Shown piece by piece: positions 6,357 to 48,093 of a stretch of DNA of 64,000 nucleotides. The translations under genes and the position numbers were made by a program. The notes under the pieces are model-generated. The model was not told the DNA's origin, did not search any database, and saw only the letters and a program-made list of their open reading frames with translations. The stretch's first letter is position 1. The number at the start of each line of letters is the position of its first letter. The DNA is from Pseudomonadota bacterium (GTDB lineage: Bacteria; Desulfobacterota; Desulfobulbia; Desulfobulbales; Desulfocapsaceae): the NCBI GenBank assembly GCA_018821985.1, contig JAHJKP010000045.1, positions 1 through 64,000 on the forward strand, in the 5' to 3' direction.

Positions 6357-8039
6357 TTACTCCTTGGATACCCGGAATACCTCCTCAATAGTGGTGATGC
6401 CCTGCAGGACTTTCATGGCGCCGTCCTGGCGTAGAGTGATCATCCCGTTCCTGATAGCCTGTTCCTTGATCTCGTCGGCGTTAGCGGTCGTCAGGATCAG
6501 GTGTTTCATCTCGCGGTCCATGAGCAGCAGCTCAAAAATGCCGCACCTTCCCTTGTAACCGGTATGGTGACACTTTGCGCACCCCTTTCCTCTGTATGCC
6601 TCTTGAATGGTAGTCCCAGGAGTGATCCCCAGTTTGAGCCAGGCTTCTTTTTCGGGTGTATAGGCCTCTTTGCAGTGTGGGCAGATGATGCGCACCAGCC
6701 GCTGGGCGAGGATGGCATTGATGGATGAAGAGAGGAGAAAAGGCTCGACACCCATGTCAATGAGTCTGGTGATAGCGCTGGCGGCATCATTGGTATGCAG
6801 GGTGGAAAAGACCAGATGACCGGTCAGGGCCGACTGGATGGCAATCTCTGCCGTTTCGGTATCGCGGATCTCGCCTATCAGGATAACATCAGGATCCTGC
6901 CGGACAATGGAACGGAGGCCGGAGGCAAAGGTGAGGTCGATTTTGGGGTTGACCTGAACCTGGCCTATGCCACTGATCCGGTATTCGATGGGGTCTTCAA
7001 CGGTAATGATATTGATGTCGGTGTTGTTAATCGACGTCAGGGCCGCATAGAGGGTAGTGGTCTTGCCGCTGCCGGTAGGACCGGTGACGAGTACGATACC
7101 GTTGGCCGCCTTGATCTGTTCGGAAAAAGGGATGAAACGATCATCCGGCATGCCAAGCTCGGTCAGGGTGATCAAAACCGAGGATTTATCGAGGAGGCGG
7201 AGCACGACCCTTTCGCCAAAGGAGGTGGGCAGTGTGGAGACCCGGATATCGACATCCTTGTTGCCGACCTTCAACTCAATCCGTCCATCCTGCGGCAGCC
7301 GCTTTTCGGCAATGTTCAGATTGGCCATGATCTTGATCCTGGAGATCAGCGCCGACTGGACATGTTTGGGCGGACTGAGCATGTCGTAGAGGATCCCGTC
7401 CAAGCGCTGGCGAATCTTCAGGCTGTGCTGGTAGGGCTCGATGTGGATATCAGAGGCATTGTCGCGTACGGCCTGAGAAAACATGAGGTTGACCAGACGG
7501 ATGACCGGGGCGTCACTGGTATCATCAAGCAGGTCGCCTGTCTCTTCAATTTCAGAAAAGAGGGCCTCCGCGTCTTCACTGTCAATGTCCTGCATAACCT
7601 CTGCCGCTGAATCCTGGGTCATGTCGTAGGCAAAGTTGATGGCGGTGGTAATGGCAGCCAGGGGGCAGAGGACTGGCCGGATCGCTTTCCAGCCCATGAT
7701 CGAACGGAGATCGTCAAGGGCCTGAAAGCTGAAAGGGTCATTGATGGCAATATAGGCATCATCCTGCGTGGCCACCGGGACCATACCGTTTTTTTTCAGA
7801 AAGCCGATGGCGATACTGGCGGTGAAATCGGTCTGAATCTCTGGTGGAAGTGTGCGTATGACCTCCATGTCCAGCTGTTCCCCGAGGGTTCCCAGGAAAT
7901 CAATCTCGTCGAGGTCATTCTGTTTAATCAGAATGCGGACCAATTGACCGCCTTTTTCCACCAAGGTCTCCATGGCCTGTTCCCAGGCCTCAGGCGGCAA
8001 GTTGAAGTGTTCAATCAGGATTGTTTGTAACTGGTTCAT
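6357..8039 (-). CDS. gspE: Type II secretion ATPase GspE
   Basis: Cytoplasmic hexameric ATPase that powers pseudopilus assembly. The 560 residues show a GspE N-terminal domain (about 1-150), a second N-domain (about 175-300), Walker A GPTGSGKTTTLYAAL (about 318-332), the Asp box region and Walker B DPDVILIGEIRD, a His box (LHTNDAASAI), and a tetracysteine zinc site (CPHC and CAKC, about 451-490) typical of GspE and PilB. It is the last gene of the leftward secretion operon, 37 bases after gspD. Its usual partner gspF is not next to it nor anywhere in this window. PilB is the alternative, but the operon argues for type II secretion. Confidence 0.93.
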   Translation of the reverse strand: MNQLQTILIEHFNLPPEAWEQAMETLVEKGGQLVRILIKQNDLDEIDFLGTLGEQLDMEVIRTLPPEIQTDFTASIAIGFLKKNGMVPVATQDDAYIAINDPFSFQALDDLRSIMGWKAIRPVLCPLAAITTAINFAYDMTQDSAAEVMQDIDSEDAEALFSEIEETGDLLDDTSDAPVIRLVNLMFSQAVRDNASDIHIEPYQHSLKIRQRLDGILYDMLSPPKHVQSALISRIKIMANLNIAEKRLPQDGRIELKVGNKDVDIRVSTLPTSFGERVVLRLLDKSSVLITLTELGMPDDRFIPFSEQIKAANGIVLVTGPTGSGKTTTLYAALTSINNTDINIITVEDPIEYRISGIGQVQVNPKIDLTFASGLRSIVRQDPDVILIGEIRDTETAEIAIQSALTGHLVFSTLHTNDAASAITRLIDMGVEPFLLSSSINAILAQRLVRIICPHCKEAYTPEKEAWLKLGITPGTTIQEAYRGKGCAKCHHTGYKGRCGIFELLLMDREMKHLILTTANADEIKEQAIRNGMITLRQDGAMKVLQGITTIEEVFRVSKE

Positions 8040-8076
8040 GGCTGTTTGTTGATGCCGATCTATCCGAGATTACTTG

Positions 8077-10449
8077 TTAATTTTGGTTAGTGGGTTCCAT
8101 GGGAGGTGGCTGCGTTTTCTGTAATCGCTTGATATTCTCCTTGCAGGTCTCAAAAAGAGCATTATCCACCATGGGATTTCGGGAATTAACCAATGCCGCC
8201 TGTTTGCTGTTATTGTCCAAGATCATCTGGTACTGCTTGATCGCTTGCTGCGGGTTGCCTTCCCGTTCATTGATGGTTGCGAGGTTGAACTGGGCGTAAG
8301 GATTATACGGATCTATGCTCAGAGCCTGATTGAACTGTTCTTTGGCTTCCTCGTATTTTCCCTTTTGCATCTGTTCAAATCCCCGGTCAACCATGGACAT
8401 AACATGGCTCTTGTCAGTCGGGTTGACAAGGAGCTGCTTTGCTTCCGGGAGATCCTTCTCGATGGTGTCGGTCTTGAGCGCTGTGACACCTGCCATGTCG
8501 CCAGGATTTTTAATGATCCTGGGGGTGATGAAGATGAACATGTTGGTCTTTTTTCGGCTGGTGTTTTTCTCTTTGAAGAGCCAGCCGAGCAGCGGAATGT
8601 CCCCTAACAGCGGAATCTTATACTCGCCCTCAGTGTCGTCCTGGCCAATGATTCCGCCGATAACAATGGTATTGTTGTCTTTGACAAGGACGGTGGTCGT
8701 GGCGGTGCGCTTGAAGGTGGTTGGTTTATCTGCCGCAGAGCCCGCCTTGAGCTTGCTGACCTCGGTGGCGATTTCCAGGCGCAGGATATCGGCCTGATTG
8801 ATCTGCGGGGTGATGGTCAGCTTGGTGGCAATATCCTTGTATTCATAGTTCTGGTAACCAATGGAGCCTGTGTCTGTGGTTGTGCCGGTGCTGTCTATGG
8901 CGGCCTGTGTTCTGGTGAGATAAGGAGTGTTCTCGCCGATACTGATTTCCGCTTTTTTGTTGTCAGTGGTCAGAATCTGGGGGGTAGCAATAACATTGAC
9001 ATTGCTATCTGTCTTGTAGGCCCTTAATACGGCACCGATATCTGGAAAGGTGATGCCTCCGATCTTGATGCCCTGTTTTAAAACGCCCAGGGAAAATCCC
9101 TGACCAATGGCGGCAGTAGCGGGAATAGCGGCAACGGCAGCAGTCGTAGCAGTAGCTGCAACAGCAGGAACGGCAGGTGTATAGCCGATGGTGTCCGAGA
9201 GTTTATAACCAGCACTGCCGCCAAATCCGGCGAGCGTCTGTCCTGTTCCATCGGCAAAGACACCGCCCGCCATCCAGTTGACCCCCACATCAAAGGTGGC
9301 ATCAGCATCCACCTCCATGATCAGCGCCTCCAGATAGACCATTCGCCTGGGGATATCCAGCTTTTTGATGACATTTTCCAGCTCCCTGAATTCGGAACGG
9401 GAAGCGGTAATAATCAGGGAGTTGGTTTCGGTGTCGGGCATGATTTTGACATCTTTGGAGATAGTCGGAGCTTCGCCTTTCTTTGCCGGATCGGTGCTCT
9501 GTTGACCGGGAAGAGAGGTTAAGACCGTTGCCAGTTCCTTCGCTGTGGCATGCTGAAGATAGACCACCTGGATATTGCCTTCACTCTGCTTCATCTCTGT
9601 ATCAAGCAGAGTGATCAGGTGTTTAATCCGAGTGATATCCGTGGGCGAGGCCACCAGAATAATACAGTTGATGGGCTCATAGGCCACGACTTTAATAGAA
9701 GAAAGAGACTTTGCCCCCTTGTTGGGGCTGGGAGTTTGCTGAAAAATAGTATTGATGGCAGTAGCCGCCACGGTTGATGAAGCGTAGTTGAGCGGGATCA
9801 CCGCAATTTCTTCATCGGTGAGCGGGACATCTATGGCTTCAATAATGGTCAGAAGTTTCTGGATGTTGGAGAGGGTTTCGGTAATAATCAGCATCCCTGA
9901 CTGGGTGTGGGCAATGACCACGGAGGTTTTGGAAACAAGGGGAGCCAGCACCTTTTTCATCTCGTCAGGAGTGGTATAGCTCAAGGGGATAATCTGGGTG
10001 ACAATCTTATCTTCGGGACGGGATGGTCCGCCATGGCTGAGGGTGTTGATGTTCTGGGAAAGCGCGCGAGATGCCGGCATTATCTTGCTGATAGCACCAG
10101 CCGACACTGTTGTGAATCCGTTTACTTCCAGGACTGACTCGAAGAGCTGATATGCCTCCTTCTCTGATATCTTGGTAGGAGAGATAATGGTGACATTCCC
10201 TTGTACCGCCTTATCAACCACAAAATTTTTCCCCGTCAACTCACTGATATATTTTATAAACAGGCGGATATCAACATTGTCGAAATCAATGGTTATGAAT
10301 CGCTCGGAACTTGTATCCTGCGATTGTTGTACCGCTCCCTCCTGGGCCGCGCAGAGGTATGGTGTAAACTGGAGAAGCAGGGTGACAACCAGTGGCAGAC
10401 AAAGTGTCTTGCAGTTGAAAGATATTTTTGAAAGATGAAGCAAACTCAT
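8077..10449 (-). CDS. gspD: Type II secretion secretin GspD with C-terminal TPR extension
   Basis: Outer-membrane channel of the secretion system. A signal peptide (about 1-35, ending LCAAQ) precedes the N0 domain (FDNVDIRLFIKYISELTGKNFVV), KH-like N1-N3 domains, and the secretin core (about 370-650), which ends in the conserved VPLLGDIPLLGWLF-type segment (here IPLLGDIPLLGWLFKEKNTS). An Ala-rich stretch of about 28 residues (421-448) lies inside the secretin gate region. After the secretin, residues about 690-770 form TPR-like helices (YEEAKEQFNQALSIDPYNPY). Most GspD proteins end in an S-domain for pilotin binding instead. At 790 residues it is longer than usual. It follows gspC by 76 bases. 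Confidence 0.93.
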   Translation of the reverse strand: MSLLHLSKISFNCKTLCLPLVVTLLLQFTPYLCAAQEGAVQQSQDTSSERFITIDFDNVDIRLFIKYISELTGKNFVVDKAVQGNVTIISPTKISEKEAYQLFESVLEVNGFTTVSAGAISKIMPASRALSQNINTLSHGGPSRPEDKIVTQIIPLSYTTPDEMKKVLAPLVSKTSVVIAHTQSGMLIITETLSNIQKLLTIIEAIDVPLTDEEIAVIPLNYASSTVAATAINTIFQQTPSPNKGAKSLSSIKVVAYEPINCIILVASPTDITRIKHLITLLDTEMKQSEGNIQVVYLQHATAKELATVLTSLPGQQSTDPAKKGEAPTISKDVKIMPDTETNSLIITASRSEFRELENVIKKLDIPRRMVYLEALIMEVDADATFDVGVNWMAGGVFADGTGQTLAGFGGSAGYKLSDTIGYTPAVPAVAATATTAAVAAIPATAAIGQGFSLGVLKQGIKIGGITFPDIGAVLRAYKTDSNVNVIATPQILTTDNKKAEISIGENTPYLTRTQAAIDSTGTTTDTGSIGYQNYEYKDIATKLTITPQINQADILRLEIATEVSKLKAGSAADKPTTFKRTATTTVLVKDNNTIVIGGIIGQDDTEGEYKIPLLGDIPLLGWLFKEKNTSRKKTNMFIFITPRIIKNPGDMAGVTALKTDTIEKDLPEAKQLLVNPTDKSHVMSMVDRGFEQMQKGKYEEAKEQFNQALSIDPYNPYAQFNLATINEREGNPQQAIKQYQMILDNNSKQAALVNSRNPMVDNALFETCKENIKRLQKTQPPPMEPTNQN

Positions 10450-10525
10450 GGCTTATCCTGGTTATTGTTCTTGTTTGGTGGTGAAAAATTCTAGTAGAGA
10501 CGATTACGCACTGTTTTAATGGCCT

Positions 10526-11164
10526 TTATTTCATTGGTTCTACCGTGTTATTTATTATGGGTTCTATGGGTTGAGGTTCCATTATACCTTCAGCAGGTAT
10601 TTCCTGGGGGGGCTCTTGTGTTAGCTCCGGTGGTGCCTGAGAAAAAAGAGCAGGATTTGTCGGGGGAGTGGAATTCTTTTTCGGAGTTTCCGGAATAAGA
10701 ATCTCCTCTTTGCCGTTTCTGTTGAGGATGATTTTTCCGCGTTGGATCTCTTTGATAAGAGCGCCTTGTATCACATCACCCTGAAAATAGATATCCTGTA
10801 GCTTTGTCTTTTTGTCAAGAATAATGGCACGGCGGTTCTTGGGTGACCCGGTAATAGTGCCAAGAAGTCCTAAGTCAAGTGAGGTGGCGACAAGATCAGC
10901 GGCAGTCTGTGTTGTCTTTCCTGGTTGATCCTTTTTTGGGGGTGGCCCAAAAAGATTACGTTTGAGAATTACCTGATGGTCTGGCCGTTTGTTTTGTCTG
11001 CCAGTAATTGGCGCTGTAACCTTTGCCATTGCGTCTTGAACTTTTGCCTCAGGACTTGTGGCCATGAGCCTGGTGAATGCAATTCTGTAGAATATTTCAA
11101 CTCCACCAGTAGCCAGTATAGTTATGATGATAAATGGGATTAATGTTTTAAGATACTTGGCCAT
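10526..11164 (-). CDS. gspC: Type II secretion inner-membrane protein GspC, without PDZ domain
   Basis: Links the inner-membrane platform to the secretin. One N-terminal TM helix (about 7-27) and a homology-region domain (about 70-150: LKRNLFGPPPKK, LGLLGTITG, AIILDKK, IKEIQRGKIILNRNGKEEIL) are clear. The last 60 residues are Pro/Glu-rich (PPELTQEPPQEIPAEG) where many GspC proteins carry a PDZ or coiled-coil domain. At 212 residues it is short for the family. It sits 12 bases after gspN in the operon. PilP is the alternative, but the gene order favours GspC. Confidence 0.8.
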   Translation of the reverse strand: MAKYLKTLIPFIIITILATGGVEIFYRIAFTRLMATSPEAKVQDAMAKVTAPITGRQNKRPDHQVILKRNLFGPPPKKDQPGKTTQTAADLVATSLDLGLLGTITGSPKNRRAIILDKKTKLQDIYFQGDVIQGALIKEIQRGKIILNRNGKEEILIPETPKKNSTPPTNPALFSQAPPELTQEPPQEIPAEGIMEPQPIEPIINNTVEPMK

Positions 11165-11176
11165 TATATCAATATG

Positions 11177-12064
11177 TTATGAGTCGAAGAGAAAGGCAGG
11201 TTTGGCAATTGTCCCTTCCAGGTGAAAGGGAAGTGCTGTATGATTTTGTTGTAACTGCAGTAATAATGGCTGGGTCTGTCCGCTCTGTTTTACCAAGGAG
11301 GGCAAGGGTGTTAAGGTGCCTGTCAGCTTAAGCTGTATGGTAGCAAATGATGTGTTGAGCGAAGTCATCTGACCTGAAAATATCCCACGAAGCTCCTTGC
11401 CGTTAAATGTTCCCTTGCTCAGAACTATCTTCTGGCTTTCCAGTTTGAAGAGCACCTCTCCTTTTTCGATAGCTATGTTGTTCAGGGACAGGATTGGATA
11501 GAGCAGCTCAAAGGTTCCGTTCTCGATATGGGCAGAACCCTGCCCGCTTCCCAGGGATATCTCCTGACCTGTTTGGCCGGAATAGCTTCCTTGTGCCGTG
11601 AAAAGACCAGTTATGGCGCGTCCGGTCTGAGCCTGCAGCAATGGCAGTTTTGCCAGGTCAAGTCCATTGATCTTTATATTCGGCAGGGTAAAGGTGTTGT
11701 GTGTCCGGTCGAGTACCAGGGCGATCTGGTGTGTTCCCCCATAGGCGGTGATGGCTAGAGAGAAATTTTTGCCTGGTGCTTTGAGGTCAGGGCTAATGGT
11801 GAGTTGTTCTATCTCAAAGACTTCTTTGGCTGCTTTTTCCTTACTCTGCAGATGAATGTTTCTGGCCACCAGGGTGAGAGGAAACCTATAGTGCAATGAC
11901 TCGATGGAGTTTTCATAGTTCGGCAGTTGCAGGGTGATGAGGTGGGTGCAGAAGGTCTTGAACTTTTGTGCCGGAAAACGGAGGTACAAAAGGAGCATGA
12001 CCAGAAGCAGACCATATATGGTATAAAGCGACCAGCGCCAGAATGTGTTTGGGAAAAAGGTCAT
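11177..12064 (-). CDS. gspN: Type II secretion protein GspN (delta-proteobacterial type)
   Basis: A 295-residue inner-membrane protein: one N-terminal TM helix (about 10-28) and a periplasmic beta-rich domain of the GspN/AsmA-like kind (LPNIKINGLDLAKLP, GLFTAQGSYSGQ, GSAHIENGTFELL). The exact role of GspN in secretion is unsettled; many systems lack it. It lies 2 bases after gspM, so the two are probably translated together. The call rests on weak motif recognition plus operon position. Confidence 0.8.
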   Translation of the reverse strand: MTFFPNTFWRWSLYTIYGLLLVMLLLYLRFPAQKFKTFCTHLITLQLPNYENSIESLHYRFPLTLVARNIHLQSKEKAAKEVFEIEQLTISPDLKAPGKNFSLAITAYGGTHQIALVLDRTHNTFTLPNIKINGLDLAKLPLLQAQTGRAITGLFTAQGSYSGQTGQEISLGSGQGSAHIENGTFELLYPILSLNNIAIEKGEVLFKLESQKIVLSKGTFNGKELRGIFSGQMTSLNTSFATIQLKLTGTLTPLPSLVKQSGQTQPLLLQLQQNHTALPFHLEGTIAKPAFLFDS

Positions 12065-12066
12065 GA

Positions 12067-12648
12067 TCAGGATTTTTGGGTAAATGTTATAATCTGCATT
12101 ACCGCATCGAGTGCGCCTTCTTCTTTGCTGTTTTCCTGAATCGAAATACGTTTGATTAGCACAACATTGTCTGTTGACTCAATCTGCTGCAGGAAATCCA
12201 CCAGTTGCTGCAGGGATATCCGTTCAAACTTGAGATCAACACGGGACTCCTGCAGGAGGCCTTCACCTTCTGAAGTTGAAGGGGTCATGGAGTTGATCTG
12301 TTGCTTGACCTTGGCTTTTGTGGCTTGCTCTTCAATGAATGCAAAGAGGGTAAATGAGGGGCTCCTTTTGTACAATCTGTTCTGGATGTCCACAGCCTGG
12401 GCCTGAAATTTACGGTACTCTTCCTGGAGCTGATGTATCTTTTTGATATCTTTATTCTTTTGGATGAGTGATTTTTGTGTCTGCTGCCGGGCCTGGATCA
12501 GGGGAGAGACTGCAAAGTGGAAAAGAGCAAAGCAGACGAGAAAGAGGACCCCGGCCAGAACAACACGTTTCTCCCGGTTTTCAAGTTTATTCAAGCCGGT
12601 CTTGCCCAGAACCGTCTGGATGGTGTTCTTAACAGTTAAAGCGGTCAT
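12067..12648 (-). CDS. gspM: Type II secretion protein GspM
   Basis: Inner-membrane platform protein that pairs with GspL. The 193 residues show a cytoplasmic start, one TM helix (about 29-50, VVLAGVLFLVCFALFHFAV), a coiled coil (QKSLIQKNKDIKKIHQLQEEYR) and a ferredoxin-like end (FERISLQQLVDFLQQIESTD...IKRISIQEN). It follows gspL by 3 bases. Sequence conservation in the family is low, so the call also depends on position. Confidence 0.85.
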   Translation of the reverse strand: MTALTVKNTIQTVLGKTGLNKLENREKRVVLAGVLFLVCFALFHFAVSPLIQARQQTQKSLIQKNKDIKKIHQLQEEYRKFQAQAVDIQNRLYKRSPSFTLFAFIEEQATKAKVKQQINSMTPSTSEGEGLLQESRVDLKFERISLQQLVDFLQQIESTDNVVLIKRISIQENSKEEGALDAVMQIITFTQKS

Positions 12649-12651
12649 GGT

Positions 12652-14154
12652 TCAGACGCCCTTCATGGTCAGTTTCAGCTCAAAGCGAATTTTTGAGCTC
12701 TTGGGATCAAGATTTGCTGCACTGATTTCCACATTGCTGAACGCGGGAGATTGCTCCAGGCCTTTTTTGATTGCGTCCACGGTGTTGAACGTGTCGGTGG
12801 TGCCTTTGAGGCGCAGCCCGTTTTCATCCACCACAAAGCGGGCCAGACGGACATCAAGCGATTCTGGGATGTTGGCGGAAATCTCGGTGAGGATATCGAG
12901 CATGGTGATGGTGGGTAGGGTTCCATCCTTGTCCATGGAGCTCTCTCTGGTCTCACGGATCTTAACCTGGAGTTGCTGGATAGGGTCAACAATTCTGGTG
13001 ACTTCCGGCAGGGTCTCAGTAAATACCGCCCGGATCTGAGTGTCGAGGCTGTTTTGTTCTTTGAGAAGCTTGCTGTAATCAACCCATAGATAACTGATTG
13101 AAAAGAGGGCTGCCGCAACCAGAGGCAGGGTGATGGCAATTGTCAGTGTTCTCTTGTCGGAAAATGATTTTTTGCTGGCAAAGGATTCTTTGCGGAAGTT
13201 GAAACCCTTCCAGCTTTTGATGATCTGCCAGCCCAGGTTGACAGAATCTTCCATGATGTTGGGCAGCCATTTTTTATCAACGGGAGGTACGAATTGGGGC
13301 ACGAATTGCTGTGCTTGGTTGGCATCTGCCAGGGTGCAGCTCCGGCAAAGATTACCTAGCCCAGCTTGTATCCGCTCTCTTGTTCCTTGCATGCACCCGA
13401 CAGGCCCGCTCAGGTATACGGTAAACGATTCTGTCTGGAATACCGAGTGCAGTGTTTGTTGAATAGCAGTGCACAATGCCTGGAAGGTGTCATCAATATT
13501 TTCGGGACGAAAAACCTTGAGAGTATTGTTGTCCAGATCGGCATGGAATCCAGATTGGAGTCCGGGGTCAAAGACCAGTGGACGGATCAGGATAATCTGA
13601 CCAGAACGGACAACGATCAATGTTGCCTGCTGCAGGCTGATATTCAGAAGAAGAAAATCTGCAGGAAGTTCAGGGGTATGAATAAGACGAAGGGTGGTCG
13701 GAATTCCGGAAATGGTCACGGTTTGCGGATCAATTCCTAATGCCTGCAGGGTTGCAAGCTGATTGGCCAGTAATTCCCGGTCAATCATGGCGGCAATGAC
13801 CTGACTTTTCTGGCTGTCTTCCCGGACAATAATGGAATCAATGAGCAGTCGCTCTATTTTGACCGGTGCATTCTCTTCCAGTTCCAGCGGCAAGATCTTG
13901 TCAATGGTTTTACGGTCTGTAAAGGGCAACGAGAGATTGCGAAAAAAGAAGGAGTCGGCCGCAAGGGCGATATGGCATGAAGTTTCGTGAAGGTCAATCT
14001 TGCGGCTCAGTTCTGTCAACACCTCTTCCATGGGCCGGTCGGCAACTGACACCACGGTATGGCCCTCGATGTGCATGACTTTGGCTTCAACATTAAAAAC
14101 GATTGCAGTGATCAAATCGCTTTTAATGTCAATGGCAAGAAATTTGCTGCTCAT
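12652..14154 (-). CDS. gspL: Type II secretion protein GspL (actin-like fold)
   Basis: Inner-membrane scaffold that recruits GspE. Residues about 1-290 form an actin/PilM-like cytoplasmic domain (FLAIDIKSDLITAIVF at the start; LPLELEENAPV; LLLNISLQQATLIV). A TM helix lies at about 334-357, followed by a coiled coil and a ferredoxin-like periplasmic domain (about 410-500). At 500 residues it matches the fused GspL type, equivalent to PilM plus PilN. It lies 3 bases after gspK. Confidence 0.88.
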   Translation of the reverse strand: MSSKFLAIDIKSDLITAIVFNVEAKVMHIEGHTVVSVADRPMEEVLTELSRKIDLHETSCHIALAADSFFFRNLSLPFTDRKTIDKILPLELEENAPVKIERLLIDSIIVREDSQKSQVIAAMIDRELLANQLATLQALGIDPQTVTISGIPTTLRLIHTPELPADFLLLNISLQQATLIVVRSGQIILIRPLVFDPGLQSGFHADLDNNTLKVFRPENIDDTFQALCTAIQQTLHSVFQTESFTVYLSGPVGCMQGTRERIQAGLGNLCRSCTLADANQAQQFVPQFVPPVDKKWLPNIMEDSVNLGWQIIKSWKGFNFRKESFASKKSFSDKRTLTIAITLPLVAAALFSISYLWVDYSKLLKEQNSLDTQIRAVFTETLPEVTRIVDPIQQLQVKIRETRESSMDKDGTLPTITMLDILTEISANIPESLDVRLARFVVDENGLRLKGTTDTFNTVDAIKKGLEQSPAFSNVEISAANLDPKSSKIRFELKLTMKGV

Positions 14155-40367: not shown

Positions 40368-40831
40368 TCAGTTGATGACGATCAATGCATAGTTCTTGTT
40401 CTGGTAACCAATCAACGAATGAAAGACATTGGCCACCAGCTTGACTTCGGGGATAAGTCCTGCTGGGTCGACCTTGAATATCCGCATGGCCACACCGCAT
40501 GCCTCAAATCGCACACCTTTCTTTTTTAACACCCGGAAGAGGTGGAGAGCCTCCTCGTCGAGTTCGGCGGGTGTTAGAAGTTTGACCGTTGGGCCACGGA
40601 AAACAACAATCATCTCCGGTTTCACGTTTTGCGCGGAGATACCCGTCCAGGTCTCATCCAAGAGTTTCAGATTGAATATCAGCGAGTCAAGATCAGCCAA
40701 CCGCACATCGAAAATGACCTTGGCCCCAACTCGGCCAGGGCTTCGTTAGCGGCCGGTTTCTGTGCAGCGTGTAGAGGCGAAGAACAGATGAGCATGAACA
40801 GTAGTATCGGCATCAAGTGTCGAACAAGCAT
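40368..40831 (-). pseudogene. DsrE-family periplasmic protein, frame broken near the N-terminus
   Basis: A minus-strand gene that appears to be frameshifted. It starts well: AAGGAG, then ATG at 40831 and a signal peptide (MLVRHLMPILLFMLICSS..., cleaved near LHA-AQ). At the run CCCC (40724-40727; GGGG on the coding strand) the frame shifts. Adding one G joins ...EALAELG to AKVIFDVRLADLDSLIF and on through the DsrE-like body (EMIVVFRGPTVKLLT, KGVRFEACGVAMRIF, ANVFHSLIGYQNKNYALIVIN) to the stop at 40368. Without the shift the first frame stops at 40679. A homopolymer error in the assembly is as likely as true decay. Such secreted DsrE proteins are common in sulfur-metabolising bacteria; the role is unknown. 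Confidence 0.8.
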
Positions 40832-40892: not shown

Positions 40893-43436
40893 CTATTCCA
40901 CTCTGTTACGAAAAGTTCCCAGTGATCCTGGATGGTGCAGCTCTTCTTCCATCTCTACTGTATGGCAGACGGCGCAACCGCGGTCGGCCCCGAGGGGATA
41001 GGGGCTGTTCTGGTATTGCAGAGGTTGCAGGTTTCCTATCTCTTTACTGTAGGCATTGTCAGCCGGGTAGAGGGCATGCTGTGAACCATGGCATGAGGTG
41101 CAGAGCAGAGCACCTTCCTCTCCATGTCGGTGGACAAACAATCCCTTTTTTCCCGTACTCCAGGTATTAAAGGCGGTACTGGAGTCAGGCGGTTGAAAGC
41201 CCACATGACAGGTCAGGCAGTCGGGCTCCATGCTCCACGGCATCCGGCCTTTGATGGTATCTTGTGCCACCTCTCCCTTGTCAGCAAGCAAAGCAAGAAG
41301 CCTAGCGCTTCCAGGCTTTTGTGTCTCTCCTTTTTCTTTCAGCAGGCTCATGGCGTGATCCGCGAGAGCGCCGTGGCAGTTTGTGCATTCGAGTCCGAGG
41401 GTGCTGTGCAGGTCCTCCATGTTACCGGTGGCGCCCTGAGCACTATTGGCATGACAGAAGGTGCAACTGTTGTTTTCTTTATAAAGATAGGTGGCGTGAA
41501 AACCATGCATGGCAGCTGAGAGATTGAGCAGCTCAGGTTGGCCAGCTGCCCCTTGGCTGCTGTCGGCATGACAGTTTTGGCAGACCACGATCTTGCCGGC
41601 ATGAAAGTCCTGGCTGAGCCTCGTGCTGCTGCGTTTGTCGTGGATGGCCAGGATATCTGCGGCAGTTTGCCGGGAGAGACCGGTGCGGCCCTGTTGTCGC
41701 CATGGCCCACCGTGACAGTTCCGGCAGCCGATCTCGTTTGAGATGCCAATTTTCAGACGGGTTGTGGCAATCACCTTCCCCTCTTTAACCGCCTCGATCT
41801 CGGCCAGGAGATAGGGACGGAAATCTTTGGCGATTGGAGGGATCTTTGCCAGGGTTGTTTCAAATGTGCCATCCGCACCAATCATCTTACCGAGAAGAGG
41901 TCCCTGGTCGGTGTCAATCCGGTAGCTTACCTGGATATCGTTGGTCAGGACGCTGGGGGTCTCTCCCCGCATGATGACTTGGGCCTGCAGGGTTGGTGGC
42001 GCAAAAGAGAAATCAATTCCGGACTGCTCCGGTTCGGAAGAGAGAACCATGCCCTTGTCGCTGCTGGCGAGGATCAGATATTCTGCGGTTTCCTGGTCAA
42101 AGAGCGCAGGTTTGATACTCTCTTTGCTGATTTTTACCATATTGCTAACTATTCCAGGAACAAGACGGGTGGTGAGATAATCGGCAAGAATACCCTGTTC
42201 TTCCACGGTTCCGGCAAAGGGCGGCATGTAAGGATTGGCTGTGCCCATGGTTGCCAGAAAGGAGCGCATACCGGTAGGCGAAAAACGTCTGGCCAGGGGC
42301 AGGATATCGTTTAAAGGGCCACCGGCTGAGTGGCAGGGCATGCAGAGCAGGGTGAACAGTTTCTTACCGGCATCCATGCGGTTTTCAGCGGTTATGGTTT
42401 TGTTTTTTACCCAACGTGCGGATGCAAGGACGCCTGTTTTCTGGATCTGCCCCATGTCTGCCTTTTTGATGGATGTGGAATACATGTAATCGTGAATGAT
42501 ATAGGGCCTGCGTCCACCTTCACGGATAAATTCGAAACTGCCCAGATAGAGGAAACCAAGGAGCAGGAGCAGCCAGGCCAGTGGCTTGCGCACGGCTTGC
42601 GGTCGGAGGATGGCCATGGTCAGGCCGCCGGCAAAGATCAGCGGCGAGAGCCAGATAAAGAGCGTCAGGAAAGGTTTCATCTCTGGGGCTCTGCTGAAGA
42701 TCATCTCCTGTTGCGGGAGCGGCAGCGCGGTTTTGTACCACAGGGCCGATCCCAGAAGCAGTATCAGGGGCGGCAGCAGCCACATCCCACAGTAACGGAC
42801 CAGGGTGTGGCGCACTGTTGTCTCTTTGATATTTACACTGGTCAGGAAACCAAAAAGTCCGGCAATCATCAGAGCCATAAAGGTGCGGAAGAAGAGGGCC
42901 GGCCAGAAAGTGGGGTTGAAAAATCCCGACCAGAAATTGTTGTCGGTCAGCCAGGACCCGGGGGTGAGCATGAAGTCAATGATGCCGTTGATGAGAAAAA
43001 GCGACATCCAGGCACAACCAAAGTAGATCCAGCCCAGGAGCAGGTGTTTCTTCGGTTCCAGCCGGTCAAAGGTGTAGTAGTAGAAGAGCAGGGAGACGAT
43101 CTCGGCCAGAAAAAAGACCCACTCCATGGCCCAGCCAAAGACAAAGGTATGGATCAGGGAAGAGGTGGCAGCCGGACTGAGCAGGGCGATTGTGAACCAG
43201 ATCCCCACGCCGGTCATGCCGCCGAAGACCATGGTCAGTAGCAGAAAAAATTTGGCGTGTTTGTGGGTATAGGCTAGGATCTCGGATGATCCTTCGCGCA
43301 ACCCTTTCATTTCGGTCAAGACCAGAAACAGTCCGCCGCCTACGGCAAAATGGGAGACATAAACATGGACAATGGCGATGAGGGCGATGAGCAGACCGCC
43401 GCCAAAGGCGTCCAGCTGCCAGACAGGATAGTTCAT
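40893..43436 (-). CDS. CydA-like membrane protein fused to an octaheme cytochrome c region
   Basis: Predicted electron-transfer subunit of 847 residues. Residues 1-300 have about 8 TM helices and align by eye with CydA: a His in the first helix (VHVYVSHFAVGGG), GGMTGVGIWF for CydA's GVATGI, AMEWVFFLAEI for EGIFAFFLEA, and GCAWMSLFLINGIIDFM for GSNLSALWILVANAWM. A monoheme cytochrome c domain follows (CMPCH, about 366-370; PYMPPFAGT). The rest has seven more sites: CRNCH, CQNCH, CTFCH, CTNCH, CLTCH, CTSCH and CAVCH. No signal peptide is needed, as the TM core would place the hemes outside. Quinol oxidation passing electrons to periplasmic hemes is my inference. It overlaps its partner's gene by 4 bases. 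Confidence 0.85.
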   Translation of the reverse strand: MNYPVWQLDAFGGGLLIALIAIVHVYVSHFAVGGGLFLVLTEMKGLREGSSEILAYTHKHAKFFLLLTMVFGGMTGVGIWFTIALLSPAATSSLIHTFVFGWAMEWVFFLAEIVSLLFYYYTFDRLEPKKHLLLGWIYFGCAWMSLFLINGIIDFMLTPGSWLTDNNFWSGFFNPTFWPALFFRTFMALMIAGLFGFLTSVNIKETTVRHTLVRYCGMWLLPPLILLLGSALWYKTALPLPQQEMIFSRAPEMKPFLTLFIWLSPLIFAGGLTMAILRPQAVRKPLAWLLLLLGFLYLGSFEFIREGGRRPYIIHDYMYSTSIKKADMGQIQKTGVLASARWVKNKTITAENRMDAGKKLFTLLCMPCHSAGGPLNDILPLARRFSPTGMRSFLATMGTANPYMPPFAGTVEEQGILADYLTTRLVPGIVSNMVKISKESIKPALFDQETAEYLILASSDKGMVLSSEPEQSGIDFSFAPPTLQAQVIMRGETPSVLTNDIQVSYRIDTDQGPLLGKMIGADGTFETTLAKIPPIAKDFRPYLLAEIEAVKEGKVIATTRLKIGISNEIGCRNCHGGPWRQQGRTGLSRQTAADILAIHDKRSSTRLSQDFHAGKIVVCQNCHADSSQGAAGQPELLNLSAAMHGFHATYLYKENNSCTFCHANSAQGATGNMEDLHSTLGLECTNCHGALADHAMSLLKEKGETQKPGSARLLALLADKGEVAQDTIKGRMPWSMEPDCLTCHVGFQPPDSSTAFNTWSTGKKGLFVHRHGEEGALLCTSCHGSQHALYPADNAYSKEIGNLQPLQYQNSPYPLGADRGCAVCHTVEMEEELHHPGSLGTFRNRVE

Positions 43437-44503
43437 GATTGTACCTCCTTGTCAGCAGGGAGGACCAGCTTGATCATCCACCAGATCAGATAGAGGCCGG
43501 CGGCAAAGAGCAGCAGAAAAAGGATCATTGGTGAATATTGGGGGACAACCTCTAGATCCGAGGTGGAAAACCAGGGAGCCAGAGTCTGCCGGCGGACAAG
43601 TTCCCGGACCGTCACCATGCAGATGATGGCCCCAAGGACGGCACCGGCCGCATGGCGGACGCGGTATTGCAGACCGTAGATCAGGGACAGGATGGCGGCT
43701 CCAATGCCGGCCAGGAGAAAACCCAGTAAGAATGCGCCGGCAGCCCCAGTTACACTGCGTATGGATGTGGGCAGGCCGCCGTAGTACCAAGTACCGATTC
43801 CAAAATTGCAGATGGTGGCATAGGAAAACCAGTTCATAGCAGAGGGGATGTGGGCTGCCGCTGCGGTGTTGCCGCCTCGTCTTTGCCAGTCATGGTAGAG
43901 GCCGAGGGCGAGTCCGCCCACGGCCACTGAGGCAAAGACGGAATGGAGATAGCGGGGCAGCAGGGTGGGATCTCCAAAGTTCAGCAGTAATCCGTTGGGG
44001 TGATCAAAATAGCGGACCCAGCTCTCAGGGCTGACCATCAGGCTCATGTTGTTGGTGAAGAAAAAGGCGATGGTGAGCAGGAAGAGAGCGATAACTGTGG
44101 TGAGCAGGGTGTGCAGGCCGGGCATCCTTGCAAATTGCAGGTTGTAGATATAGGCAGCATAGTAGGCAAGAATGAGAAGGGCCACGATGGAGAGCCAGAA
44201 CACGGCCATGAGCACTGAGCTGGTGTACATGAAGTGGCCGTAGAGAACCTGGAGAAAGAGCAGGGGGGCGACGCCGAAGTTGACGGCAAAGGCAATGGTA
44301 AAGGGAAGTTTTTGGGAGATCAGTTGGCTTTCAGCCGGACTTGATTCCTTGAGCGCGTGATTGATACAGGCGATGATGGCCCAGCCCAGCATGATATTCA
44401 TCACCAGTAGATGGAGGAGAAAGGTGATTGAAAGCAGGATCTGAAACCAGCCCCATGGAACTTGCAAGGCGTCCGGGGTTGGAATAAGGTGTGCGGGAAT
44501 CAT
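43433..44503 (-). CDS. Second CydA-like membrane subunit of the bd-like multiheme complex
   Basis: A 356-residue protein with about 9 TM helices and no heme c site. Its first half resembles the CydA core (WFQILLSITFLLHLLVMNIMLG, then AVNFGVAPLLFLQVLYGHFMY where CydA has INFAIGVATGIILEFQFG). It is not a normal CydB. GGAGG lies just before the ATG. The ATGA overlap with the octaheme gene shows the two are made together, so I expect a heterodimeric membrane core. Ligand residues cannot be assigned by eye. Confidence 0.75.
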   Translation of the reverse strand: MIPAHLIPTPDALQVPWGWFQILLSITFLLHLLVMNIMLGWAIIACINHALKESSPAESQLISQKLPFTIAFAVNFGVAPLLFLQVLYGHFMYTSSVLMAVFWLSIVALLILAYYAAYIYNLQFARMPGLHTLLTTVIALFLLTIAFFFTNNMSLMVSPESWVRYFDHPNGLLLNFGDPTLLPRYLHSVFASVAVGGLALGLYHDWQRRGGNTAAAAHIPSAMNWFSYATICNFGIGTWYYGGLPTSIRSVTGAAGAFLLGFLLAGIGAAILSLIYGLQYRVRHAAGAVLGAIICMVTVRELVRRQTLAPWFSTSDLEVVPQYSPMILFLLLFAAGLYLIWWMIKLVLPADKEVQS

Positions 44504-44554
44504 GATGCCTCCATGGTTTTTTTGGCAGAGTAGGGACTCTCTCTTCTGCTATCT

Positions 44555-44583
44555 GTTATAGGGGATATGAAAAAAAAAAGCAA
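44555..44583 (-). promoter_or_regulatory. Candidate promoter of the bd-like multiheme operon
   Basis: On the minus strand TTGCTT (44583-44578) and TATAAC (44560-44555) are 17 bases apart, a good sigma70-type layout. The start codon of the first gene lies about 50 bases downstream at 44503. Confidence 0.5.
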
Positions 44584-44600
44584 AAACTAAGAGAAATGAG

Positions 44601-44610
44601 AAGAATTCTT
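44601..44610. promoter_or_regulatory. Palindrome AAGAATTCTT between the two divergent promoters
   Basis: A perfect 10-base palindrome lies just before the -35 box of the rrf2 promoter and 17 bases upstream of the -35 box of the leftward promoter. Its place fits an operator that could act on both genes; it is also a short AT-rich palindrome that could arise by chance. Confidence 0.35.
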
Positions 44611-44611
44611 A

Positions 44612-44640
44612 TTGACATGATTGAGTAAATTTTTTATAGG
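44612..44640 (+). promoter_or_regulatory. Candidate sigma70 promoter of rrf2-cydAB
   Basis: A consensus -35 box TTGACA (44612-44617) is followed, after exactly 17 bases, by TATAGG (44635-44640) as -10 box. The expected start of transcription is near 44647, inside the GACTA/TAGTC dyad. Confidence 0.6.
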
Positions 44641-44661
44641 ACTATTAAAGTCTTATTAGTC
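44640..44661. promoter_or_regulatory. Candidate Rrf2 operator dyad
   Basis: GACTA (44640-44644) and TAGTC (44657-44661) form an inverted repeat with a 12-base AT-rich centre, covering the predicted transcription start of rrf2. Rrf2 regulators bind dyads of this size and often repress their own gene, so autoregulation is likely; binding is inferred. Confidence 0.45.
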
Positions 44662-44680
44662 GTGTTTGAAGGGGGTTGGT

Positions 44681-45124
44681 ATGAGGTTGACACGAGCAGG
44701 CGAGTATGCCATCAGATGTATGGTCTATCTGGCCTTCAAAGGTAACGGGGTCTTAGTGGCCAAGCAGGAGATTGCTGTGCAGGCGGATATTCCCAGTCCT
44801 TTTCTGGCCAAGATTGCTCAGGATCTGGCTCGGGCTCATCTGATCGAAATCCGCCAAGGACCGAAAGGCGGCTATGTCTTGATCAAAGATCCTGCTCGGA
44901 TTACCCTGTTGGAGGTTGTTGAAGTGATGATTGGCAAGATTCAGTTGAATGATTGTGTCAGCAGGCCTGGAAGCTGTGCGGCCAGTGGCCGGTGCCGGGT
45001 GCATAAGGTTTGGGATGATGCCAGCGCCCTGCTGCGCCACTATCTTGCTGGTGTCACCTTTGCTGAGTTATGCAAGGATGAATCTTGTCTTCCTGTTTTT
45101 TCTGTGCATAATAAAAAGATCTGA
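44681..45124 (+). CDS. Rrf2-family transcriptional regulator
   Basis: A 147-residue winged-helix regulator of the IscR/NsrR/RsrR group. The HTH begins MRLTRAGEYAIRCMVYLA; three cysteines with family-like spacing (NDCVSRPGSCAASGRC, near 90-105) can hold an iron-sulfur cluster that senses NO, oxygen or redox state. The ATG at 44681 follows GGGGG; an upstream TTG at 44666 is unlikely. It lies between the bd-like multiheme operon and cydAB and is probably the first gene of the cyd transcript. Confidence 0.93.
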   Translation: MRLTRAGEYAIRCMVYLAFKGNGVLVAKQEIAVQADIPSPFLAKIAQDLARAHLIEIRQGPKGGYVLIKDPARITLLEVVEVMIGKIQLNDCVSRPGSCAASGRCRVHKVWDDASALLRHYLAGVTFAELCKDESCLPVFSVHNKKI

Positions 45125-45178
45125 AGTCAATTTTTTTGACTGATGGACGTACGCTCACGTTGTTGGGGAGGAGAAATT

Positions 45179-45406
45179 ATGTCGCAGCCATTAACAAGGG
45201 TTTATACCTTTTACCGAAACGGATTCAGGGACATGACTGTGGGCAGGAGTTTGTGGAAGATTATCCTGATCAAGCTCTTTGTTATGTTTGCTGTCCTGAA
45301 GTTGTTTTTCTTCCCCAATTATCTTAAGACGAATTTTCAGACTGATGAACAACGGGCTGATCATGTCCTGGAGCAGCTTTCCAGGCCTGCTGTCCATAAT
45401 CACTAA
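45179..45406 (+). CDS. DUF4492 small membrane protein preceding cydA
   Basis: A 75-residue protein with the family signature FYRNGFRDMTVGRSLWKIIL and one membrane helix ending KLFFFPNYL. DUF4492 proteins are found next to cytochrome bd genes in many anaerobes, and an accessory role in the oxidase is likely but unproven. Start at ATG 45179 with GGGGAGGAG just upstream; the cydA start follows 20 bases after its stop. Confidence 0.88.
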   Translation: MSQPLTRVYTFYRNGFRDMTVGRSLWKIILIKLFVMFAVLKLFFFPNYLKTNFQTDEQRADHVLEQLSRPAVHNH

Positions 45407-45425
45407 AAACAAGGAGGTGTGATCA

Positions 45426-46958
45426 ATGGTAGATGTAGATCTGAGTTTGGTGAACTGGTCCAGGGCGCAATTTGCCTTGACGGCCATGTATCACTGGATT
45501 TTTGTGCCCCTGACCCTGGGGCTGTCTTTTTTATGTGCCATGTTTGAGTCCATTTATGTGCGTACAGGTGATGAGAAGTGGAAAGCGATCACCAGATTCT
45601 GGATGACACTATTTGGCATCAATTTTGCTATTGGGGTGGCCACGGGTATTATCCTTGAATTTCAATTCGGCACCAACTGGTCGAACTATTCCTGGATGGT
45701 GGGTGATATTTTCGGCGCGCCGCTGGCCATTGAAGGGATCTTCGCCTTCTTCCTGGAGGCGACCTTTTTCGCAGTCATGTTTTTTGGTTGGAATCGGGTC
45801 TCCAAGGGCTTCCATCTCTTTTCCACCTGGATGGTGGCCGTTGGTTCCAATCTGTCGGCTCTGTGGATTCTGGTAGCCAATGCCTGGATGCAGAATCCAG
45901 TGGGCATGGCATTTAACCCGGAGACGGCCCGTTTTGAGATGGAGAATTTCTGGGCAGTGCTTTTCTCACCGGTTGCCATGTCCAAATTCACCCATACAAC
46001 CAGTTCCGGTTTTCTTTTGGGCTCCCTTTTTGTGGTGACAGTCTCTTGCTGGTATCTGTTGAAAGGCAGGCATGTGGAGATGGCCAAGAAATCCATAGTG
46101 GTGGCATCGGTTTTTGGCCTATTGGCCTCTGCCTATGTCGGTTTCACCGGCGATGAGGCGGCCTTTGAGGTCGCGCAAAAGCAGCCCATGAAACTGGCCG
46201 CCTTTGAAGGGCTGTATAAAGGCGAGCAGGGCGCCGGTCTTGTTGCCGCCGGTATTATAAATGGTGCCAAGAAGCCTGGGGACTCGCAGGGCCCTTTTCT
46301 CTTTGAGGTAAAAGTTCCGGGGCTTCTTTCCCTGCTGGCCAATCGTGCGCCGGGCTCATTTGTGCCGGGTATTGACGATCTGGTCTATGGAAACAGTGAG
46401 CAGAAGGTCATGGGAGTGGCCGCGAAAATGAAGCTGGGACAGCTGGCCGTAGCTGATCTTGCTGCCTTTAAGCAGGCCCGTCAGGAGAAGAATGATGGCG
46501 CGGCAAGTGAAGCCCTGGCCCGATTCAGTGCCAATAAAGAATTCTTAGGTTATGGCTATCTGGACACCCCGGAAGAGGCGGTGCCGCCGGTGAGTACGGC
46601 CTTCTACTCTTTTCATATCATGGTGATCCTGGGTTCTCTCTTTCCTGTGATCTTTCTGGCCCTTCTCTTTTTTACGCTTAAAGGGAAAATCAGTGAAACA
46701 CGATGGTTACTGCCTCTTGGTCTTCTCTCTTTCTTCCTGGGTCTTGTGGCCCAGCAGATGGGCTGGGTTGTGGCGGAGGTTGGCCGTCAACCTTGGGCAA
46801 TTCAGGGCTTGATGCCGGTAAAAATGGCCACCACCAATCTGGCGGTAGGCCATGTGCAGGCAACATTTTTCATGTTTTTGGGGCTTTTCACCCTGCTGCT
46901 TATTGCTGAGATAAAAATTATGTTGAAGCAGATTTCCATCGGACCGGAGGGCCTTTAA
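45426..46958 (+). CDS. cydA: Cytochrome bd quinol oxidase subunit I
   Basis: Quinol-oxidising, heme-binding subunit that reduces oxygen to water in the inner membrane. Heme ligands expected in the family are present: His in TAMYHWIFVPLTLG (about 23), His in SKFTHTTSSGF (about 190) and Met in FHIMVILGSLFP (about 397). The quinol-site region GDEAAFEVAQKQPMKLAAFEGLY and a Q-loop of about 130 residues are seen, as is the C-terminal VVAEVGRQPWAIQGL. The 510 residues match the long-Q-loop length. AAGGAGG precedes the ATG. In an anaerobe it would serve oxygen scavenging. Confidence 0.97.
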   Translation: MVDVDLSLVNWSRAQFALTAMYHWIFVPLTLGLSFLCAMFESIYVRTGDEKWKAITRFWMTLFGINFAIGVATGIILEFQFGTNWSNYSWMVGDIFGAPLAIEGIFAFFLEATFFAVMFFGWNRVSKGFHLFSTWMVAVGSNLSALWILVANAWMQNPVGMAFNPETARFEMENFWAVLFSPVAMSKFTHTTSSGFLLGSLFVVTVSCWYLLKGRHVEMAKKSIVVASVFGLLASAYVGFTGDEAAFEVAQKQPMKLAAFEGLYKGEQGAGLVAAGIINGAKKPGDSQGPFLFEVKVPGLLSLLANRAPGSFVPGIDDLVYGNSEQKVMGVAAKMKLGQLAVADLAAFKQARQEKNDGAASEALARFSANKEFLGYGYLDTPEEAVPPVSTAFYSFHIMVILGSLFPVIFLALLFFTLKGKISETRWLLPLGLLSFFLGLVAQQMGWVVAEVGRQPWAIQGLMPVKMATTNLAVGHVQATFFMFLGLFTLLLIAEIKIMLKQISIGPEGL

Positions 46959-46959
46959 A

Positions 46960-48093
46960 ATGATAGCAAATCTTGATTACGGAACCTTACAGCAGCTATG
47001 GTGGATCCTCTGCAGCGTTGTCGGTTCATTGTTTCTGTTCCTGACCTTTGTCCAGGGCGGTAATACCCTGCTCTGGCAGGTGGCCAAAAACGATGTGGAG
47101 AGTGCTTTGGTGATGAACTCACTGGGACGCAAGTGGGAGATGACCTTTACTACCCTGGTTCTCTTTGGCGGCGCACTCTTTGCGGCATTCCCTAAATTCT
47201 ATGCCACCAGTTTCGGCGGGGCTTACTGGGTTTGGATGTTGATTCTCTTCACCTTCATTATCCAGGCCGTCAGTTACGAATACCGGAAAAAACCTGACAA
47301 TTTTTTGGGCGCCAAGGTCTATGAATTTTTTCTGCTCATTAACGGCACCGTGGGTGTGCTCCTGATCGGTGCGGCAGTTGGGACCTTTTTTACCGGTTCT
47401 AACTTTACCCTGAACGTCTATAATCAGGTAAGCTGGACGCATCCCATGCGTGGACTGGAGGCGGCCTTCTCGCTCTTTAATCTTTCCCTTGGTCTTTTTC
47501 TGGTCTTTAATGCCAGGGTGCTCGGTGCCATGTATCTGCTGAATAATATTAATTTCTCAGCCATGGATAGTTTTAAGGCACGGCTTCGTAAGGCGGTATG
47601 GGTTAACTTCCTCTGTGCCCTGCCCTTCCTCCTCTATGTGCTGGCTTCACTGCTGTTGATGCAGGGATTTGGCGTGGATGAGGCCGGCGTTGTCTCCATG
47701 GTTGCCAATAAATATCTCTTAAATCTGCTGGCTATGCCACTGGTCCTTGGCCTGTTGCTTGTTGGTCTTGTGCTGGTGATTCTGGCTGTGCTGGCCACTG
47801 CCTTTAAGGGAAGCGATAAAGGGATCTGGTTGGCCGGATTGGGTACCGTGCTTGTTGGTTTGGCGGTCTTTTTTACGGCCGGCTTTAACAATACGCCTTT
47901 TTATCCTTCCAAGGTTGACCTTCAGTCCAGTCTGACGATTTACAATGCCTCATCAAGTCCCTACACCTTGATGGCCATGACCTATGTGGCTCTGGGAATC
48001 CCTTTTGTCCTGGCCTATGTGGCTTATGTGTGGAGGCAGATGGATTCTCAAAAACTGGCAGCCCATGAAGTGATGGATCACGAGGCGTACTAG
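46960..48093 (+). CDS. cydB: Cytochrome bd quinol oxidase subunit II
   Basis: Membrane partner of CydA, 377 residues with about nine TM helices. Family segments at the N-terminus (LQQLWWILCSVVGSLFLFLTFVQGGNTL) and the ending YPSKVDLQSSLTIYNASSS are typical of the delta/epsilon-type CydB. It starts 1 base after the cydA stop. Confidence 0.95.
   Translation: MIANLDYGTLQQLWWILCSVVGSLFLFLTFVQGGNTLLWQVAKNDVESALVMNSLGRKWEMTFTTLVLFGGALFAAFPKFYATSFGGAYWVWMLILFTFIIQAVSYEYRKKPDNFLGAKVYEFFLLINGTVGVLLIGAAVGTFFTGSNFTLNVYNQVSWTHPMRGLEAAFSLFNLSLGLFLVFNARVLGAMYLLNNINFSAMDSFKARLRKAVWVNFLCALPFLLYVLASLLLMQGFGVDEAGVVSMVANKYLLNLLAMPLVLGLLLVGLVLVILAVLATAFKGSDKGIWLAGLGTVLVGLAVFFTAGFNNTPFYPSKVDLQSSLTIYNASSSPYTLMAMTYVALGIPFVLAYVAYVWRQMDSQKLAAHEVMDHEAY

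Follow-up and report, generated by a model that had tools for sequence, protein, structure and literature searches.

CydB-less pairs of CydA paralogs with a covalent octaheme extension are candidate cytochrome c-fed oxygen reductases in Desulfocapsaceae and other bacteria

Three families of bd-type oxygen reductases have been distinguished, one of which, OR-N, consists of two CydA paralogs (CydAA') and likely takes its electrons from cytochrome c instead of quinol (PMC10839748). OR-C, OR-N and CydAA' are also treated elsewhere (PMC13189123, PMC12342949). Fusions of CydA to several c cytochromes, with cydB absent, were noticed in more than 50 genomes in a 2015 report whose authors discarded them (PMC5322542). 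Cable bacteria have a CydA homolog without CydB, CydAh, that carries a periplasmic cytochrome c domain (PMC13047784, PMC10030654), and the chain proposed for them runs from menaquinol through PetAB, periplasmic c cytochromes and the fibres to O2, potentially via CydAh (PMC13047784). Here we analyzed a gene pair within 64,000 nucleotides of a Desulfocapsaceae genome (contig JAHJKP010000045.1, assembly GCA_018821985.1), hereafter the window. We named the 847-aa CydA-type multiheme protein B and its 356-aa partner P. With moderate confidence, we favor the reading that P-B is a CydB-less, two-subunit (A-A') member of the bd superfamily working as a periplasmic cytochrome c:O2 reductase.

Both reading frames lie where the initial annotation, made from the sequence of the window, had placed them (Table 1); P precedes B on the minus strand, and the frames overlap by 4 bp. 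B has CxxCH motifs at residues 365, 571, 619, 658, 684, 740, 779 and 821; in 20,000 shuffles of its residues, the motif count averaged 0.012 and never exceeded 2. The CydA-type core proposed for B was borne out. Pfam Cyt_bd_oxida_I matched residues 17-195 above its curated cut-off (32.7 vs 26.2 bits), and hhalign linked the B core to the CydA profile at 60% (E 8.7e-5) and to the CydB profile at 0.3%, the CydA and CydB profiles giving 0.1% against each other as a reference. The AlphaFold model of B (mean predicted local distance difference test score, pLDDT, 78) has eight membrane helices, a c domain, a beta domain and a tail. Foldseek found CydA chains from E 1.7e-7 and CydB chains from 4.2e-4 with this model, and VIA aligned it to CydA chains inside residues 5-345 with Z of 27.9-30.4. 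The beta domain reached a weak Z of up to 7.4 to beta-sandwich domains.

Residue slots were assigned by aligning 72 distinct B with eight canonical CydA. The set comprised 5 lone B and 67 whose genomes also have P (octaheme in 50, triheme in 4 and one-heme in 13). Of these 67, 64 share a locus with their P, whereas L061, L062 and L074 have it elsewhere in the genome. Before counting, we removed duplicates with identical cores, B shorter than 400 aa, four B cut by contig or locus ends, P that fell short of 300 aa or did not exceed 70 bits, and a single B that matched the P profile as well. H24, E306 and R309 of B are invariant (72/72) and E105 is present in 71/72, in agreement with the helix 1 His and the conserved Glu helix described earlier; E112 is present in all 67 partnered B. 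In CydA terms, the partnered B keep His19 (67/67), Glu99 (66 Glu and 1 Asp), Glu107, Glu445 and Arg448 (67/67 each). Glu445 is a heme ligand in bd oxidases. A GSNLS-like segment had also been noted: the aligned region exists, reading 'CAWMSLFLINGIIDFMLTP' in B vs 'GSNLSALWILVANAWMQNP' in the window's true CydA, but GSNLS is not literally present.

The slot of His186, the heme b558 ligand, holds His in none of the 67 partnered B (55 Phe, 12 others), and that of Met393 holds Met in two (43 Phe, 22 others); window B has Phe in both. Further, Lys252 and Glu257 of the Q-loop, present in 8/8 canonical CydA, are gapped in 67/67 partnered and 5/5 lone B, and a K.AA.E motif is absent from residues 1-320 of window B and from P. 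The initial description of the complex as quinol-linked is not supported by these counts. CydA-type heme b ligands, which the same annotation had expected, were found in part: judged by its residues, B retains the di-heme oxygen site of CydA, without the b558 ligands and the Q-loop.

P gave no Pfam or NCBIfam match at E<=1. With hhalign, its profile matched the B core at 95.2% (E 2.7e-8) and the CydB profile at 1.1%, which upholds the suggestion that the co-translated partner is CydA-like and not CydB. The AlphaFold model of P has nine long helices (mean pLDDT 83), and its fold ranking placed CydA chains first (Z 25.3-28.1), followed by alternative complex III (ACIII) chains (17.9-19.2) and polysulfide reductase (14.7). 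Foldseek alone returned no PDB match for the P model at E<=0.001, the best (1.2e-3) being CydA and CydB chains mixed. From the profile link to the B core and the predicted fold, we conclude that P is a CydA paralog, not CydB. Two CydA paralogs, as sequence and models indicate, stand in place of CydA plus CydB in a CydAA'-type arrangement, and B and P form a putative assembly.

Two other affiliations were rejected. A phmmer search of P against PDB sequences returned potassium channel rows only (E 0.045 and worse), which we took as chance. Membership of B and P in the NrfD/ACIII group was discarded as well, since the ACIII and polysulfide reductase chains score lower (Z 14.7-19.2) and neither protein has a Pfam match to an NrfD-type or heme-copper family (COX1 PF00115) at E<=1; these were the unrelated families that the initial annotation had wished to see checked. 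We read the resemblance as a shared scaffold.

Residues H31, H187, G237, M296 and R300 are invariant in 73/73 distinct P, and R304 is present in 70/73. Window P keeps the H19 equivalent and lacks the E..R.P motif. On an ungapped sequence reading, P His187 stands 8 residues past a conserved Pro, as His186 does in CydA. The five lone B, a small and distant set, have His186 and Met393 in 5/5 and Glu107 in 0/5 (Leu), with the same Q-loop gap as partnered B. Since the His is found in B when B is alone and in P when the two are paired, these residue patterns suggest that the low-spin heme b site has shifted from B to P.

The proposed fusion to heme c domains, a monoheme followed by seven further CxxCH, was recovered in full. 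C365, C368, H369 and M404 are invariant in 72/72 distinct B, and the monoheme is predicted to be a His/Met c-type heme. Multiheme cytochrome families of Pfam match residues 566-691 and 739-826, PF22113 (MtrC/MtrF domain family) covering part of this stretch. Across 31 aligned sequences, the heptaheme domain has exactly seven invariant His outside CxxCH (599, 644, 647, 677, 787, 834 and 835), matching its seven CxxCH in number, which fits bis-His hemes. Lysine and arginine (K/R) counts in the first five loops of B alternate 0, 2, 0, 3, 0, consistent with an N-terminus outside. This pattern and the eight helices together place B from residue 323 onward in the periplasm, and in this model the C-terminus with its hemes c should be periplasmic. 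Heme c attachment takes place in the periplasm, and the heme c assembly family PF01578 is matched twice in the window's own genome.

To relate P to B across genomes, we scanned genome contigs for P and obtained 47 loci, of which 43 have a B match in the same locus. Two of the other four (L017 and L043) end near P at a contig end; in L038 (Desulfonema magnum) and L041, P is unlinked and B lies elsewhere in the genome. Counted by genome, P and B are both present and unlinked in D. magnum, G002 and G168. Among the 43 P-B loci, 34 have a full B with eight CxxCH, five have a B truncated by contig ends (L008, L011, L019, L023 and L046), and L036, L039, L049 and L050 have a B with 1, 1, 3 and 1 CxxCH. 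Exactly eight CxxCH are present in all 48 distinct full-length fused B, two of the 50 octaheme rows (L061 and L062) being cut by locus ends. In a phylum sample of 297 genomes, B was found in 53 (E<=1e-15), P in 51 (E<=1e-10) and both in 50 (Fisher p 7e-52); in an order sample of 242 genomes, B was found in 139, P in 125 (both E<=1e-6) and both in 124 (p 2e-50). These p values overstate independence, as the genomes are related. The P-B pair is near-obligate and common in the window's own order. B and P distances are correlated over 64 pairs (Mantel r 0.963, with 0/1000 permutations as high), a value confounded by shared descent and not proof of contact.

Of the 15 B-only genomes in the order, 13 fall in two genera (g250 and g251). 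There we observed a lone one-heme CydA-c without P, single-contig genomes being among them; these are possible cable bacteria, a group reported to possess CydA alone. On a 72-row tree, 4 changes are required for the octaheme label, and starred branches force no fewer than 2 of them. A single fusion origin is not shown, as the tree settles neither one fusion nor several; the five lone rows and the distant one-heme rows join on long branches, possibly falsely. L036, L039 and L071 are one-heme members within the octaheme part of the tree, and either an ancestral state or loss of the heme wire is possible for them. In L036, a separate frame (285 residues, cut by the contig end) lies after the one-heme CydA-c and matches B 430-624 at 31%. 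The window's own genome encodes an independent nine-CxxCH protein of 505 aa, with a match to B 541-694 at 34%. Relatives of the heme wire therefore exist as stand-alone proteins.

Other arrangements were seen around related pairs. The P-like partners of two distant pairs (L096:5247-6812 and L090:7444-8997) carry two CxxCH each, and B is flanked on its other side by a diheme gene. A separate gene for an eight-CxxCH protein (L095:8933-10438) directly follows a pair of triheme B and P. What looks like a decaying pair lies at G470:C1:3088973-3091551: the B match there is shortened, and the P matches that follow it are split over several frames, one of which has internal stops.

Next to P-B, the window holds a divergent canonical cydA-cydB operon, which includes a DUF4492 gene, and an Rrf2-family regulator gene between the two operons (Table 1). 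A canonical cydA stands divergently upstream of P in 18 of the 47 loci. In L050 (Vampirovibrionales), Rieske and cytochrome b genes lie between P and B; the window's own genome has such a pair elsewhere than at P-B, and no match to heme-copper oxidase (COX1 PF00115) at E<=0.001. The electron donor, as we infer, is most likely a periplasmic cytochrome.

Table 1. Positions of the P-B genes, their parts and neighbors in the window, and of lone relatives in other genomes
Feature	Position	Strand	Description or basis
B	40893..43436	minus	847 aa, 8 CxxCH; CydA-type core, monoheme c domain, beta domain and heptaheme domain
P (A')	43433..44503	minus	356 aa; CydA paralog, 9 predicted membrane helices
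B residues 1-322, CydA core with 8 predicted membrane helices	42471..43436	minus	Alignment, AlphaFold model, fold match
B residues 345-425, class-I-like monoheme c	42162..42404	minus	C365-x-x-C-H369 with Met404
B residues 450-567, beta domain between monoheme and heptaheme	41736..42089	minus	Strands in AlphaFold model
B residues 568-847, predicted bis-His heptaheme	40896..41735	minus	Seven CxxCH; Pfam PF22113 and PF14522 matches
B Glu306 codon, CydA Glu445 slot	42519..42521	minus	Alignment
P His187 codon, CydA His186 (heme b558) slot	43943..43945	minus	Putative slot, from ungapped sequence reading
Rrf2-family regulator between divergent P-B and cydAB operons	44666..45124	plus	Pfam PF02082
Canonical cydA-cydB, divergent neighbor of P-B	45426..48093	plus	Pfam and NCBIfam matches
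Lone one-heme CydA-c	L131:6031-7311, L132:6692-7966, L133:5633-6940, L134:6262-7548, L135:6115-7458		

The Rrf2 regulator (44666-45124) shows a C-x6-C-x5-C pattern (Cys97/104/110), which we take to resemble that of iron-sulfur-binding Rrf2 proteins, sensors of nitric oxide (NO) and redox state; the NsrR profile of NCBIfam matched it at E 1.2e-11 but with 44.8 bits against a cut-off of 182. In the canonical CydA (45426-46958), a His occupies the position of E. coli Arg391, two residues ahead of the b558 Met ligand, and the same holds for 4 of the 8 aligned canonical CydA, this one included. Downstream of B on the same strand lies a gene for a DsrE-like protein (40368-40706, by Pfam). A scan of 44400-45500 found one promoter-like site (1.6 expected) and no terminators (1.0 expected). 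Farther off, 6357-14154 holds ordinary type II secretion or pilus-like genes (T2SSE, secretin and T2SSL/PilN matches).

From the gene pair, the predicted folds, the kept and lost residues and the co-occurrence, we infer the heme content, the donor, the direction of flow, O2 as the substrate, the heme b in P and the role. The CydA core of B would hold the di-heme oxygen site. The monoheme c may be the entry heme, and the bis-His heptaheme a wire gathering electrons from periplasmic cytochromes. P would take the structural place of CydB and supply the low-spin heme b histidine lost from B. Periplasmic c hemes could receive electrons either from periplasmic dehydrogenases or from menaquinol, in the latter case via the Rieske/cytochrome b of the genome; the electrons would then pass through the heptaheme and the monoheme to the di-heme site of B and on to O2. 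The role might be oxygen defense or micro-oxic respiration. More tentatively, and with considerable doubt, we propose that the heme set is split over the two CydA paralogs, with the oxygen site in B and the low-spin heme b in P, and is fed by a covalent eight-heme periplasmic wire that bypasses the quinone pool. In that case, electrons arriving from the periplasm or from outside the cell could be used to reduce O2.

Several observations weigh against a cytochrome c:O2 reductase. O2 as the substrate is deduced from ligands and neighboring genes only. Of the 31 loci whose sequence extends 5.5 kb or more upstream of P, 16 have no divergent cydA there, which marks this neighbor as a feature of closer relatives. 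Between P and B, bc-type genes were seen in L050 only. The link of P to CydA runs via B and the predicted fold, P giving only 0.2% against the canonical CydA profile directly (hhalign), and we found no residue to serve as the second axial ligand of a heme bound at P His187. Modeling of the heptaheme part of B is poor: pLDDT is mostly below 60 beyond about residue 731. Outer-side loops 6 and 8 of B hold three K/R apiece, and the loop charges of P alternate more weakly, neither of which clearly supports the topology.

The same architecture could instead serve NO or another small oxidant, as a detoxifying reductase fed by periplasmic cytochromes. The di-heme site cannot distinguish O2 from NO, and the divergent Rrf2 regulator, presumably akin to iron-sulfur sensors, would suit such a role; but a canonical cydAB adjoins P-B, and oxygen reduction is the main function known for bd-type sites (PMC10839748), and we regard this substrate as unlikely. 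Improbable to a similar degree is an outlet in which P and/or B oxidize menaquinol and pass the electrons out to the hemes c. CymA and CbcL are examples of such quinol:cytochrome outlets. Both P and B share a fold with the NrfD-type subunits of ACIII and polysulfide reductase, the multiheme part matches the MtrC/MtrF family, and a quinone site of another kind, for example in P, is conceivable. Against an outlet, the Q-loop residues are gone from 67/67 partnered B and the b558 His from B, and invariant oxygen-site residues would be left unexplained.

The same losses, and the same unexplained oxygen site, confront a reversed flow in which hemes c feed the quinone pool for electron uptake, although bd-like proteins of Nitrospina, if they meet quinone, were suggested perhaps to act like ACIII in reverse (PMC3578206); we give it very little weight. 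Hardly more credible is a peroxidase, a sensor or an electron-storage protein in place of a catalytic gas reductase: eight hemes c could hold charge, but the bd di-heme ligands are invariant and the CydA-like partner is near-obligate. A redox role, as first annotated, fits the data, and an oxygen reductase fed by cytochrome c is the form of it that we retain.

No settled account exists of O2 reduction in sulfate reducers, sulfur disproportionators and their cable-bacteria kin. In cable bacteria, one candidate O2 reductase is a CydA homolog carrying a c domain (PMC13047784); one groundwater genome of this group is reported with a bd-II oxidase (PMC6976610) and closed genomes without a complete bd oxidase (PMC10030654). 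P-B, found in 124 of the 242 order-sample genomes, offers a testable case: can a bd enzyme without a quinol site be fed by cytochrome c, and can a heme b site move to a partner? It would show a rewiring of the bd scaffold from quinol to cytochrome input.

With the neighboring canonical CydAB (45426-48093), B has the CydA fold and the oxygen-site residues in common; it differs in having no Q-loop, no b558 His and no CydB, and in its eight added hemes c. OR-C (Murali 2021) we take to be the heme-c-bearing CydA, a description that suits B with its C365xxCH369 and Met404 (72/72); going by this definition, OR-C is the likely home of B. Like CydAA' of OR-N, P-B consists of two CydA paralogs with likely cytochrome c input. 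The PetAB-type (Rieske/cytochrome b) chain proposed for CydAh might, by analogy, fit P-B similarly. The possible cable-bacteria genomes differ from this in lacking P and in having a lone one-heme protein with both His186 and Met393 retained. The fusions of 2015 are apparently the same kind of protein, with a CydA part, several c-type cytochromes and no cydB, but the available portion of that account gives no partner P, ligand analysis or mechanism (PMC5322542). Our literature search, whose scope excluded most subscription-journal papers, showed among its best-ranked hits no paper that we recognized as describing P with an octaheme B. Taken together, P-B is known in outline, uncharacterized in the literature covered, and here made more specific: it is a near-obligate A-A' pair that has lost the quinol input and gained a heme wire.

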